Part shown: positions 4,829 to 13,918 of the stretch, in pieces
How positions within the stretch are numbered: position 1 is the stretch's first letter
How the letters are laid out: each line of letters begins with the position of its first letter
From: Flavobacterium sp. GSB-24
GTDB taxonomy: Bacteria > Bacteroidota > Bacteroidia > Flavobacteriales > Flavobacteriaceae
Assembly: GCF_027924665.1 (NCBI RefSeq)
Contig: NZ_AP027043.1
Span: 3,100,001-3,164,000 of the forward strand
Direction: 5' to 3'
Length of the DNA stretch: 64,000 nucleotides
The notes under the pieces: generated by a model
Seen by the model: the letters and a program-made list of their open reading frames with translations, nothing else
Databases searched by the model: none
Told to the model about the DNA's origin: nothing
Program-made: the position numbers and the translations under genes

Positions 4829-5350
4829 ATGGAAAGTTTGAGTTTTTACGAAAATCAATTTATAAAAGCAGATGCGTTAATTTCTGAGGGAAATTCGGCA
4901 GACGCAAAAGAATTACTTGAAGAAATTTTAGCGCAGTATCCTGATTTTGGAAAAGCTCACAATCATTTAGGATGGATTTATTACAATAAATTAAGTGATT
5001 ATGAGAAAGGAATTTATCATTACAAACTTGCGATGAAGTTCGATACTAAATATCCTGCCCCTTATTTAAATTATACTTATTTATTAATTGATATTGGCAG
5101 ATATGCCGAAGCAAAAGAGCATATTAATTTTACTTTGGCTAATTTAGAAAATGCAGATAATTCGACTTACAATAGTGAATTAGGTAGAATGGCAGAGTAT
5201 GAAAGTCAATATATTATGGCTTATAATTATTATAAAGCAGCAACCAAAAATGCATTAAACCCAAATTTTATTGACAATATGAATGCTAATATGAAAAGGG
5301 TTAAGGATAAAATGTCTATTTTTGAAAAATTAAAACTGAAATTGAAATAA
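4829..5350 (+). CDS. Tetratricopeptide repeat protein
   Basis: A 173-residue soluble protein made of TPR-like helix pairs. The unit ending FGKAHNHLGWIYYNKLSDYEKGIYHYKLAMKFDTKYPAPYLNY has the W/Y-G-A spacing of TPR motifs. No signal peptide or membrane segment is present, so it is probably cytoplasmic and acts as a protein-protein adaptor. It lies 10 bases after recN and 21 bases before fabV. Its partner is unknown and no specific function can be given. Confidence 0.75.
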   Translation: MESLSFYENQFIKADALISEGNSADAKELLEEILAQYPDFGKAHNHLGWIYYNKLSDYEKGIYHYKLAMKFDTKYPAPYLNYTYLLIDIGRYAEAKEHINFTLANLENADNSTYNSELGRMAEYESQYIMAYNYYKAATKNALNPNFIDNMNANMKRVKDKMSIFEKLKLKLK

Positions 5351-11059: not shown

Positions 11060-11095
11060 AAAAAGCCCGAAGACATTTAGTTTCGGGCTTTTTTT
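11060..11095 (+). terminator. Intrinsic terminator in rtcB leader, with competing antiterminator pairing
   Basis: The stem AAAAGCCCGAA (11061-11071) pairs with TTCGGGCTTTT (11082-11092) and is followed by a T run. The 5' arm can instead pair with CTTCGTGGCTT at 11015-11025 inside the short ORF: 10 base pairs with one bulged T, using 11063-11072. The two folds exclude each other. That is the layout of transcription attenuation, although no folding energies were calculated. Confidence 0.75.
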
Positions 11096-11236
11096 ATTCT
11101 AGACACTTCAAATTTTCCCGAAAAAAGATTCAAAGTAATTATCCGGAAGGATAAAAGTTTGTATGCTTAAATTTTATTTAATCCTTTTTGTATTAAGTGG
11201 ACTTGGGCATGCTGTAAATAGTAGTATAAAAAATTT

Positions 11237-12628
11237 ATGGGAAATAAATTATCTGGAAAAGACCTGATTAAATTGGGATTTCCAAAAAACAATTCAATAA
11301 ATATCGCCTTAGGGCAGATAAACAGATATAGAAAAAGAGAAAAAAAGGAATCTATTCTAACAGAAGCAAAAGATGTCTTGCTAAATCCTGAAAAGTACGA
11401 AGGAAACGGAACCTGGGGGAAAGTAGCCGAAGGCTTGATAAAACCAGTTCAAGTAAGGATGCATCAGTTGAAAACAACCAGAGCTCCTTTTACAATTTTT
11501 GGTGAAAATGAAATCGATCAGCAGGCAAAATTTCAATTGTATGATTCTTTGAAACTGCCAGTTTCGGTTGCAGGAGCTTTAATGCCAGACGCACATTCTG
11601 GATATGGTTTACCAATCGGCGGTGTTTTAGCAACCGATAATGCTGTGATTCCATACGGAGTTGGGGTTGATATTGGATGCCGAATGAGTCTCTCAATATT
11701 TGATTTGCCAGCTTCTCATTTTAAAGGGAGAGAGCATCAGCTTGAGGCTATTTTAAAAGACAATACCAAGTTTGGGATGTATGAAACGCATGCATCAAGA
11801 GTAGACCATGACGTTTTTTATAAAAGTGAATTTCAAGATATTCCGCTGTTGAAGAATCTTTTACCTAAAGCTTACAAACAATTGGGATCTTCAGGCGGAG
11901 GAAATCATTTTGTAGAATTTGGAATTGCTAAAATCGATAACCCAGAAAACGAGTGGAAGCTCGAAAATGGGGAGTATTTCGCTGTTCTTTCGCATAGTGG
12001 TTCGCGTGGTTTGGGCGCAAACATTGCCAAACATTATACTTATTTGGCGACAAAGCAATGTCCGTTACCAAAAAATGTGCAGCATTTAGCATGGCTGGAT
12101 TTGAATACACATGATGGTCAGGAATATTGGCTTGCAATGAATTTAGCTGGAGAATATGCAAAAGCTTGTCATGATGATATTCATAGAAGAATTGCCAAAG
12201 CTATTGGGAAAAGAGTAGTAGTAACGATAGAAAATCACCACAATTTTGCCTGGAAAGAAATGGTAAATGGTCAAGAATGTATTGTTCATAGGAAGGGAGC
12301 AACGCCAGCAGCTGAAGGTCAATTGGGAATTATTCCGGGTTCGATGACTGCGCCTGGCTACATTGTAAAGGGTAAAGGAAATGCAGAAAGTTTAAACTCT
12401 GCCTCTCATGGAGCTGGCCGTTTGTTTTCGAGAGCAAAATGTAAAAGTACTTTTACGCAAAGTGAGATCAAAAAGGTTTTGAAAGCCAATGATGTAACCT
12501 TGATTGGAGGAAATATTGACGAAGCTCCAATGGCGTACAAAGACATTACAAAAGTTATGGCGAATCAAACCGATTTAGTAGAAGTTTTGGGAACTTTTAC
12601 GCCAAAGATCGTTAGAATGGATCGTTAA
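11237..12628 (+). CDS. rtcB: RtcB family RNA ligase (PrfH-linked type)
   Basis: A 463-residue RNA 3'-terminal phosphate/5'-hydroxyl ligase (GTP and Mn dependent). Metal and catalytic residues of the family are visible: D145 and C148 in GVDIGCRM, H224 in GGGNHF, H253 in LSHSGSRG, the HHNFAW segment near 334, and H391 in SASHGAGR, the histidine that is guanylylated. An N-terminal extension of about 70 residues (SGKDLIKLGFP and onward) precedes the core. Its neighbour prfH, 17 bases downstream, identifies it as the RtcB paired with PrfH, reported to re-ligate damaged 16S rRNA after ribosome rescue. Expression may be set by the leader described upstream. Confidence 0.93.
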   Translation: MGNKLSGKDLIKLGFPKNNSINIALGQINRYRKREKKESILTEAKDVLLNPEKYEGNGTWGKVAEGLIKPVQVRMHQLKTTRAPFTIFGENEIDQQAKFQLYDSLKLPVSVAGALMPDAHSGYGLPIGGVLATDNAVIPYGVGVDIGCRMSLSIFDLPASHFKGREHQLEAILKDNTKFGMYETHASRVDHDVFYKSEFQDIPLLKNLLPKAYKQLGSSGGGNHFVEFGIAKIDNPENEWKLENGEYFAVLSHSGSRGLGANIAKHYTYLATKQCPLPKNVQHLAWLDLNTHDGQEYWLAMNLAGEYAKACHDDIHRRIAKAIGKRVVVTIENHHNFAWKEMVNGQECIVHRKGATPAAEGQLGIIPGSMTAPGYIVKGKGNAESLNSASHGAGRLFSRAKCKSTFTQSEIKKVLKANDVTLIGGNIDEAPMAYKDITKVMANQTDLVEVLGTFTPKIVRMDR

Positions 12629-12645
12629 AAAGAGATTAAAAAAAA

Positions 12646-13335
12646 ATGGAAAGAATAATTCAGATAACAGCGGGTCGCGGACCTGCAGAATGCACTTGGG
12701 TTGTTGCCCAAGTGCTTAAAAAAGTTTTGGAAGAGGCGCAGGATCAACAATTAGAAACCGTTTTACTGCAGCGCGAAGCAGGTCAGGAAAATGGAACGGT
12801 TGAAACGGCTTCAATTGCTGTAAAAGGAAAAAATGCTGAGAAATTTGTAAAATCGTGGATTGGAACGATTCAATGGATTGGGCAGAGTCAGTTTAGAAAA
12901 ATGCATAAACGCAAGAACTGGTTTATTGGAATTTTTGAAATCGAACCGCAGAAAAACACAGCGGTTTCAGAAAATGATATTCAATATCAGGCAATGCGTA
13001 GTTCTGGAGCGGGCGGTCAGCATGTAAATAAAGTGAGTTCGGCAATTCGGGCAACACATATTCCAACAGGAATTGCAGTTGTTTCGATGGACAGTCGTTC
13101 TCAACACCAAAACAAAAAACTAGCAACAGAAAGATTATTAAAAAAATTAGAAGAAGAAAAACTGATTCAGCTTAAAAATCATGTTGGTAAACAATGGGAA
13201 AATCAACTCAATGTTGAGCGTGGAAATCCTATTAGAGTTTTTACCGGAAGTGATTTTAAAAAGAATAAAGCGGAGAAGAGTTACAAAGGAACTCGTCAGA
13301 AATTAAAAAACGATTTACGAAATGAAAACAACTGA
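12646..13335 (+). CDS. prfH: Peptide chain release factor homologue PrfH
   Basis: A 229-residue class-I release factor relative lacking the codon-recognition domain. The peptidyl-tRNA hydrolysis motif GGQ is at residues 123-125 within RSSGAGGQHVNKVSSAIR, as in RF1/RF2. The N-terminal TAGRGPAECTWVVAQVL and the segment SWIGTIQWIGQSQFR are features of PrfH rather than ArfB. The C-terminus is basic. PrfH releases the nascent chain from ribosomes damaged in the decoding centre, so that the partner RtcB can repair the rRNA. Its last 14 bases overlap the start of the following TPR gene. Confidence 0.93.
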   Translation: MERIIQITAGRGPAECTWVVAQVLKKVLEEAQDQQLETVLLQREAGQENGTVETASIAVKGKNAEKFVKSWIGTIQWIGQSQFRKMHKRKNWFIGIFEIEPQKNTAVSENDIQYQAMRSSGAGGQHVNKVSSAIRATHIPTGIAVVSMDSRSQHQNKKLATERLLKKLEEEKLIQLKNHVGKQWENQLNVERGNPIRVFTGSDFKKNKAEKSYKGTRQKLKNDLRNENN

Positions 13336-13855
13336 TAAATATCTTTTTCAGGCCTTGGATAATTATCCGTTTTGGCTTGAAGGAACAATCGAATCTTTGG
13401 ATTATGCTTTTTCTTATGATGATAAAAACACAATGGTGTTATGTTTATACGGAAGAATTCAAGCAGAACAATTAATGAATTACGAAGAAGCAAAATCTTA
13501 TTTTCAGCAAGCGTTAGCTATTAATATTCATGCTCTTGAAGTATATCCGTATTATTTGCAGACATTGATTGTGAATGAAGATTATGAAGAAGCTGAAAAG
13601 CTAATTGATTTTGCTTTGACTGTAAAAGGAATAAACAAGTCTGAAATTTATGTCAAAAAAGCAATTTTATTAGAAGTACAGCATAAATTTAAAGATGCTT
13701 TAAAAGAAATTAAGCAAGCAAAATTACATTCTATTCAACATGATTATGACTCTGGAATTAGTGAAGTTGAGAAAAGAATTAAAGGTAAACTTGATTTGTT
13801 GAAAAAGAAGAAAGATAAAAAAACAAAAAAAGATTCTAAAAAGAAATCGAAATAA
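13322..13855 (+). CDS. TPR protein with lysine-rich tail, coupled to prfH
   Basis: A 177-residue protein whose ATG lies inside the end of prfH (14-base overlap, different frame), so it is probably translated by coupling. Residues about 30-130 form TPR-like helix pairs (ALEVYPYYLQTLIVNEDYEEAE). The C-terminal 20 or so residues are almost all lysine with Asp/Ser (KKKKDKKTKKDSKKKSK), a likely nucleic-acid or ribosome contact. There is no signal peptide or membrane segment. The family function is not known to me. The position suggests a role with RtcB/PrfH, but that is inference; it could be an unrelated adaptor. Confidence 0.75.
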   Translation: MKTTDKYLFQALDNYPFWLEGTIESLDYAFSYDDKNTMVLCLYGRIQAEQLMNYEEAKSYFQQALAINIHALEVYPYYLQTLIVNEDYEEAEKLIDFALTVKGINKSEIYVKKAILLEVQHKFKDALKEIKQAKLHSIQHDYDSGISEVEKRIKGKLDLLKKKKDKKTKKDSKKKSK

Positions 13856-13860
13856 TTTTA

Positions 13861-13898
13861 AACAAAAAACGATGCAATTTTGCATCGTTTTTTGTTTA
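13861..13898 (+). terminator. Terminator after the rtcB-prfH-TPR unit
   Basis: The long perfect stem AACAAAAAACGATGCA...TGCATCGTTTTTTGTT has an ATTT loop and lies 6 bases after the TPR stop codon. The symmetric A/T flanks let it work in both directions. Confidence 0.88.
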
Positions 13899-13918
13899 AT
13901 TAAGTTACAAACAAAGTT

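Follow-up and report, generated by a model that had tools for sequence, protein, structure and literature searches.

The 64,000-nucleotide stretch of Flavobacterium sp. GSB-24 analysed here (RefSeq assembly GCF_027924665.1, contig NZ_AP027043.1, positions 3,100,001 to 3,164,000 of the forward strand; hereafter the window) carries an RNA ligase gene (rtcB), a release factor H gene (prfH) and a gene for a small tetratricopeptide repeat (TPR) protein in direct succession. We tentatively favour, at a little less than even confidence, the reading that these genes make up an RtcB-PrfH operon for ribosome rescue and repair in its three-gene version, which is the usual one in the order Flavobacteriales, and that the TPR protein serves as an adaptor of RtcB-type RNA repair and not of PrfH alone. 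The extent of the locus (11237-13855), the 17-base gap between rtcB and prfH, the 14-base overlap of prfH with the TPR gene, the RtcB residues D145, C148 and H391 and the PrfH GGQ motif had been given in an earlier sequence-only reading of this DNA and were all reproduced. The features of the locus are as follows, with the basis of each in brackets.

11237-12628, + strand: rtcB, RNA ligase, 463 amino acids (PF01139 match and active-site residues)
12646-13335, + strand: prfH, release factor H, 229 amino acids, GGQ at residues 123-125 (TIGR03072 over cut-off)
13322-13855, + strand: TPR gene, 177 amino acids (near-cut-off TPR matches and solenoid model)
13255-13332, + strand: basic C-terminal extension of PrfH, about residues 204-229 (comparison of C-termini)
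13739-13852, + strand: C-terminal helix of the TPR protein with its Lys-rich tail, residues 140-177 (structure model and charge)
About 11060-11096, + strand: hairpin and T-run upstream of rtcB (read in the sequence)
13858-13899, reported on the - strand: terminator-like hairpin directly 3' of the TPR gene (hairpin scan)

Profile searches agree with the earlier identification of the first two genes as an rtcB-prfH pair: RtcB scores 281 bits on PF01139 (cut-off 27; match from residue 101) and PrfH scores 235.3 bits on TIGR03072 (cut-off 166.65). The N-terminus of this RtcB is about 70-100 residues longer than the family models, and the protein stays under the cut-off of TIGR03073 (release_rtcB), the model for the rtcB of prfH operons (137.9 versus 271.8 bits). 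Its residues D145, C148 and H391 align to identical residues in the archaeal RtcB chain 1uc2, and we take them to be catalytic positions (the histidine that accepts guanosine monophosphate, and metal ligands). PrfH is without the N-terminal domain 1, the RF2 model being matched from position 118, and it shows the family's GGQ motif and an rtcB gene immediately upstream. The closest solved chains are 9mor_A and 9mq4_A, which are presumably from the work of Tian et al. (a link that we assume); residues 2-225 match the 231-residue chain of 9mor, including the C-terminal extension, which is missing from PrfH proteins of 195-208 residues in other groups. Both enzymes are basic, with isoelectric points of 9.0 for RtcB and 9.8 for PrfH.

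The association of the TPR gene with prfH was examined in a family sample (299 genomes from 236 genera, 22 with a PrfH over the cut-off) and a phylum sample (395 genomes, 28 with a PrfH at E 1e-30 or better), which overlap in G000 (the genome of the window) and G127 and together provide 48 distinct prfH loci, 26 of them with flanks of only 1.5 kb. In the family sample, 18 of the 22 prfH genomes carry a TPR homologue no more than 1.5 kb away from prfH. In the phylum sample, prfH is immediately followed by the TPR gene in 26 of the 28 genomes, and both exceptions are outside Flavobacteriales. When both samples are pooled, the gene is present at 42 of 48 distinct prfH loci and at 42 of 46 within the order; for the genus Flavobacterium, of which 24 members were drawn, the figure is 16 of 16 prfH genomes. 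In 27 of the 42 measurable loci, the usable TPR start codon (ATG) closest to the prfH stop is found at -14 to +5 relative to it, and at the genome level the family sample has the TPR gene in 20 of 22 genomes with prfH versus 34 of 277 without it. Other accessories at the 48 loci are a nucleotidyltransferase-like gene (11 loci) and a zinc-ribbon-like gene (8 loci). Six comparisons with relatives give non-synonymous divergence (dN) of 0.03-0.13 versus synonymous divergence (dS) of 0.24-1.02, values that place the TPR gene under purifying selection. Considering that the rtcB-prfH-TPR arrangement recurs in both samples and that its third gene is under such selection, the adjacency is not due to chance, and the TPR gene proves to be a lasting and closely coupled third gene in this order.

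The TPR family is also found at many sites without prfH. A profile search of the 299 genomes returned a match at E 1e-5 in 78 of them, 54 of which were strong (at least 155 bits); weak matches (below 75 bits), which seem to stem from a distant paralogue family or from segments of large proteins, were excluded. In 60 loci of up to 20 kb that were fetched and mapped, 53 of the 54 strong TPR genes were called, and the G096 copy, missed by gene calling, was positioned from its coordinates. Only 18 of the 54 strong genes are beside prfH, whereas 36 are not; an RtcB gene lies within 10 kb in 17 of the latter (16 of 35 without G096). The view that the TPR gene belongs to PrfH alone is thus not supported.

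We distinguished two RtcB classes by labels coined in this analysis, class A (that of the window) and class B. Within 10 kb of the 53 called TPR genes, class A was found near 20, class B near 20 and either of them near 34 (35 of 54 when G096 is included), while slipin was found near 23, prfH near 18, and RtcB or slipin near 41; some contigs end early (e.g., L096 and L105), such that the absence of a partner within 10 kb can be a contig-end effect. Among the 35 TPR genes without prfH, slipin is near 15 and a WYL gene near 10; an RlaP gene is near 6 of all 53 and near one of these 35. Representatives of the neighbouring genes match the Band_7 (slipin), WYL, RlaP, RNase_T and metallophosphoesterase models. 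At the genome level, the TPR gene occurs in 37 of 49 genomes with a class A or B RtcB versus 17 of 250 without, and within the 277 prfH-free genomes in 17 of 27 versus the same 17 of 250 (Fisher p 2e-11, kinship uncorrected); with other RtcB types no link was seen in the 299 genomes (1 of 16, p 0.32). A class A RtcB gene directly precedes the TPR gene without prfH in G068, G077, G179, G057 and G096 of the family sample, and in G620, a member of the window's genus, RtcB is followed by the TPR gene after 39 bases and no prfH was found genome-wide at E 1e-30. In the phylum sample, strong TPR genes were detected in 29 of 395 genomes, all from Flavobacteriales, and those off prfH are from G157, G042 and G620. 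Class A as scored includes a side branch, recognized by eye, that comprises the second RtcB of the window's own genome and those of G033 and G259; no strong TPR gene adjoins these.

These contexts can be compared on a tree that comprises 64 TPR proteins and an outgroup of 3 rows; the 11 rows added from the phylum sample and from the named set described below are all prfH-linked. The prfH label changes 10 times on the tree, at least 8 of these changes being forced by well-supported branches, against a mean of 22 for shuffled labels, which indicates repeated gain or loss of the link between the TPR gene and prfH. Of the 21 rows in one clade (support 100/100), 18 are prfH-linked. In G193 and G036, prfH is located inside an island with a WYL gene and a class B RtcB, together with a TPR gene from the island clade; class A RtcB is absent within 10 kb in both cases.

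The TPR protein of the window stays below the Pfam TPR cut-offs (TPR_2 25.2 versus 27 bits; TPR_1 23.5 versus 27.8 bits). Its structure model, a confident one, is a helical solenoid (mean predicted local distance difference test 92, predicted template modelling score 0.82) with a single long helix (residues 140-176) at its end, and the nearest solved folds identified by Foldseek are designed CTPR proteins, PilW, PilF and MamA. At pH 7, residues 1-149 have a charge of about -9 and the last 28 residues about +12; the net charge of the last 30 is +11. Tails of +10 or more were found in 31 of 917 genes of at least 100 amino acids in the 60 fetched loci, and 29 of the 31 are TPR genes of this family. 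The median charge of the last 30 residues is 10 in prfH-linked copies, 13.5 in RtcB-linked copies without prfH, 15 in slipin-only copies and 3.5 in copies with no such partner. Judged from the basic tail, binding of the TPR protein to the ribosome or to another substrate is plausible.

In relatives of these enzymes, PrfH is established to act on ribosomes with a damaged decoding centre, from which it releases the peptide, and RtcB to rejoin cut 16S rRNA. We prefer an RtcB adaptor because the TPR gene occurs with RtcB without prfH, and because the body of the TPR protein is acidic while RtcB and PrfH are basic. As regards binding and the order of events, we infer a scheme in which, by analogy with the relatives, PrfH would free the peptide from a ribosome damaged in the decoding centre and RtcB would then reseal the cut 16S rRNA; the acidic TPR solenoid might hold a basic partner protein (RtcB or PrfH), the Lys-rich helical tail might hold rRNA or a ribosomal subunit, and the adaptor would in this way keep the ligase near its broken substrate.

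Several observations weigh against such an adaptor. Gene linkage is no proof of contact, and the main weakness is that 12 of the 36 TPR genes off prfH have neither RtcB nor slipin nearby, a further 7 having slipin only. The tail is a low-complexity and uneven feature, prfH- or RtcB-linked copies spanning +1 to +19, and one prfH-linked copy (L107) is without a Lys tail. Four of the 22 prfH loci of the family sample have no TPR gene in cis: in G019 and G156 a homologue is present elsewhere in the genome, which speaks for the adaptor, but in G186 (88% complete) and G252 no TPR match was found at E 1e-5. Similar cases come from the named set, a PrfH scan of genome contigs with the best 80 loci listed, of which the first 15 (L130-L144) were mapped; 11 of these are likely true PrfH (L130-L137, L139, L140 and L142; kept out of the 42 of 48), and the remaining 65 (L145-L209), mostly RF1/RF2-like by identity and length, were left unmapped. 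Among these 11 best-listed loci, only two (L130 and L142) have the TPR gene, and no member of this TPR family was found in the mapped stretches of the other nine, namely one from a Flavobacteriaceae metagenome-assembled genome (MAG; L131) and eight from outside that family (Chitinophaga, Mucilaginibacter, Edaphocola, Sphingobacterium, Sutterella, and MAGs of Bacteroidaceae, Desulfobulbaceae and Lachnospiraceae). Since such TPR-free prfH loci exist, PrfH and RtcB can do without the TPR protein.

A broader form of the adaptor reading, which we regard as possible but rather doubtful, is that the TPR family supplies the RNA-repair systems of Flavobacteriales with a common and exchangeable subunit, a substrate-holding factor for RtcB-type ligases; one protein with an acidic solenoid and a Lys tail would then serve the PrfH operon, PrfH-free RtcB loci and the islands of RtcB, slipin and WYL genes.

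The alternative that survives best, although we consider it unlikely, is that the TPR protein is a PrfH-specific subunit, a ribosome-binding cofactor in peptide release whose copies elsewhere were recruited for other uses. The overlapping or near-overlapping TPR start and the near-constant presence of the gene at prfH loci of the phylum sample would fit such a subunit, and so would the basic PrfH extension, present at 42 of 43 prfH loci with the TPR gene versus 4 of 15 without in a count of C-termini that omits L210 and L224 as repeats and L142 as interrupted and in which L136 and L236 have the same PrfH C-terminus and may be one organism. However, two thirds of the strong homologues are away from prfH, RtcB-TPR pairs without prfH exist, and the link with the extension tracks taxonomy; moreover, the PrfH of G079 is short although a TPR gene is present, the gene order there being rtcB-TPR-prfH. 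A strict tie between extension and TPR gene, considered as a candidate rule, is weakened by this short PrfH with a TPR gene and by the four long ones without a TPR gene in cis. The corresponding rule for RtcB, by which the TPR protein would pair with the N-terminal extension of the ligase, was rejected because Chitinophaga, Mucilaginibacter, Edaphocola, Sphingobacterium and a Bacteroidaceae MAG also have a long RtcB (466-497 amino acids), beside a short PrfH, and the mapped stretches of these loci contain no TPR gene.

Less probable still is a passenger or regulator that travels with RNA-repair islands (e.g., in damage sensing or the binding of an incoming RNase toxin) without touching either the ribosome or RtcB. 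The 12 of 53 copies without prfH, RtcB or slipin nearby are what such a protein would leave, and a second observation in its favour is that a WFxxRLNxLL-like C-terminus replaces the Lys tail in 10 of 53 TPR genes by pattern (11 by eye, which adds L081) and that RtcB is near only one of these 10 versus 33 of the 43 others (Fisher 1.7e-4). Nevertheless, this type of tail is largely confined to one clade (10 rows, support 100/99), so that the contrast amounts to about one event and provides no independent evidence, and both the near-constant linkage to prfH in Flavobacteriales and the purifying selection on the gene argue against a mere passenger. The relatives with this C-terminus are L075, L081-L084, L086-L089, L092 and L093, some of which lie at conserved sites by a TerB-like or metG-like gene (names by eye). 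Least probable of all is a slipin (SPFH/Band 7) platform scaffold, in which the TPR protein would tether RNA-repair enzymes and rtcB-prfH-TPR would be a cut-down derivative: slipin, whose representative matches Band_7, is within 10 kb of the 23 TPR genes counted above (7 of them without RtcB nearby) and near 8 of the 18 prfH-linked ones, but the window's own locus and 9 others of these 18 have none within about 9-10 kb, and none was seen near the RtcB-TPR pairs of G068, G077, G179 and G096 (the contig of G057 is too short to tell).

Hairpins flank both ends of the rtcB-prfH-TPR genes, which therefore look like one transcription unit. The upstream hairpin, which is absent from the output of a scan with loops restricted to 3-8 bases, probably marks the end of the preceding transcript, as judged from its position and T-run; the downstream one has 19 pairs (5 of them G-C) and a loop of 4, and the region contains 4 terminator-type hairpins versus 2.3 expected from shuffles. 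A sigma-70 promoter scan yielded 10 sites versus 11.8 expected, none usable. None of the three proteins matched PADLOC at E 0.01, and two scans of viral contigs, one with the TPR alignment and one with a peptide pattern, gave no match. The window also contains a second small TPR protein of 173 amino acids (4829-5350, + strand), located between recN-like and fabV-like genes (both names by eye); it is a distant paralogue of the third gene, scoring 51.6 bits on the TPR-family profile, and is an outgroup in the tree.

Other observations concern the partners of the family. In L142 (Chryseobacterium sp. E1), prfH is broken into two reading frames of 126 and 103 amino acids, with rtcB and the TPR gene nearby. 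A gene for an AAT/acid-ceramidase-like amidohydrolase (PF03417) at L098:8688-9635 (G156), with a matching gene in L099 (G019), sits between the nucleotidyltransferase-like gene and prfH, in both cases in a cassette without TPR in cis. A PcfJ-like gene lies directly upstream of the class A RtcB gene at L077:11990-13348 (PF14284) and also in L094, L095 and L107, all four loci carrying RtcB and the TPR gene. In another RtcB island, a WYL/WCX regulator is fused to a PhyH-type dioxygenase domain (L066:11099-12817, 573 amino acids). The window's own genome has a separate island (L238, G000:C1:4935000-4953000) with another RtcB of 473 amino acids, a WYL-type regulator and an RNase T-like exonuclease, where an uncharacterized protein of 746 residues adjoins RtcB; no TPR gene was found in this island, and the 746-residue gene resembles in size a 750-residue gene near the slipin-RtcB genes of G033 (L239), a likeness noted by eye.

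To our knowledge, the two enzymes alone do not explain how RtcB, once PrfH has done its part, locates a single broken bond in the 30S subunit. The TPR protein is a small candidate for this targeting step, as it is nearly always encoded with rtcB-prfH in one order and also occurs with PrfH-free RtcB. The counts correct the natural assumption that the TPR gene is tied to PrfH alone; because close relatives adjoin RtcB without PrfH, they suggest that this helper may serve RNA repair more generally.

With regard to known systems, the sequence-only reading had held the third gene to be no standard part of the published description, but it is not missing from print. Burroughs and Aravind (2019, PMC6514570) reported a TPR-domain gene "in some cases" among the accessories of loci that encode RtcB and release factor H (RFH), and proposed an Rqc1-like scaffold; the window's third gene is thus already in print as a prediction, and its TPR family is likely the same as theirs. 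The other accessories in that study comprise a Pol-beta nucleotidyltransferase, a zinc-ribbon protein that carries a basic helix, and one further protein containing charged helices, the charged regions being suggested to serve as ribosome-binding tails. The window likewise has a TPR gene beside the rtcB-prfH pair, and its relatives carry nucleotidyltransferase-like and zinc-ribbon-like genes, one representative of each having a Pfam match that is weak and below the cut-off; what differs is the near-constant presence of the TPR gene at prfH loci of one order and its occurrence at PrfH-free loci. The locus is therefore a further example of a published architecture, with its third gene modestly reinterpreted. 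Excerpts of PMC11090510, PMC7824862 and PMC12699882 contain no link between RtcB and a TPR gene. The Escherichia coli RtcB2-PrfH system, which according to an excerpt of PMC9223846 protects from colicin E3 in vivo, similarly has rtcB and prfH as neighbours; however, it is a two-gene module as presented there, and the window's RtcB is longer at the N-terminus and under the TIGR03073 cut-off. The PrfH of the structures 9mor and 9mq4, released in 2025 under the entry title "Damaged 70S ribosome with PrfH bound", shares 52-53% identity with that of the window in fold alignments (225 columns for 9mq4) and belongs to the same length class (231 amino acids), with the C-terminal extension covered. Finally, the RtcB/WYL/slipin islands of the same family contain a close TPR homologue, mostly with a Lys-rich tail, but differ from the window's locus in having a class B RtcB and in being mostly without prfH.

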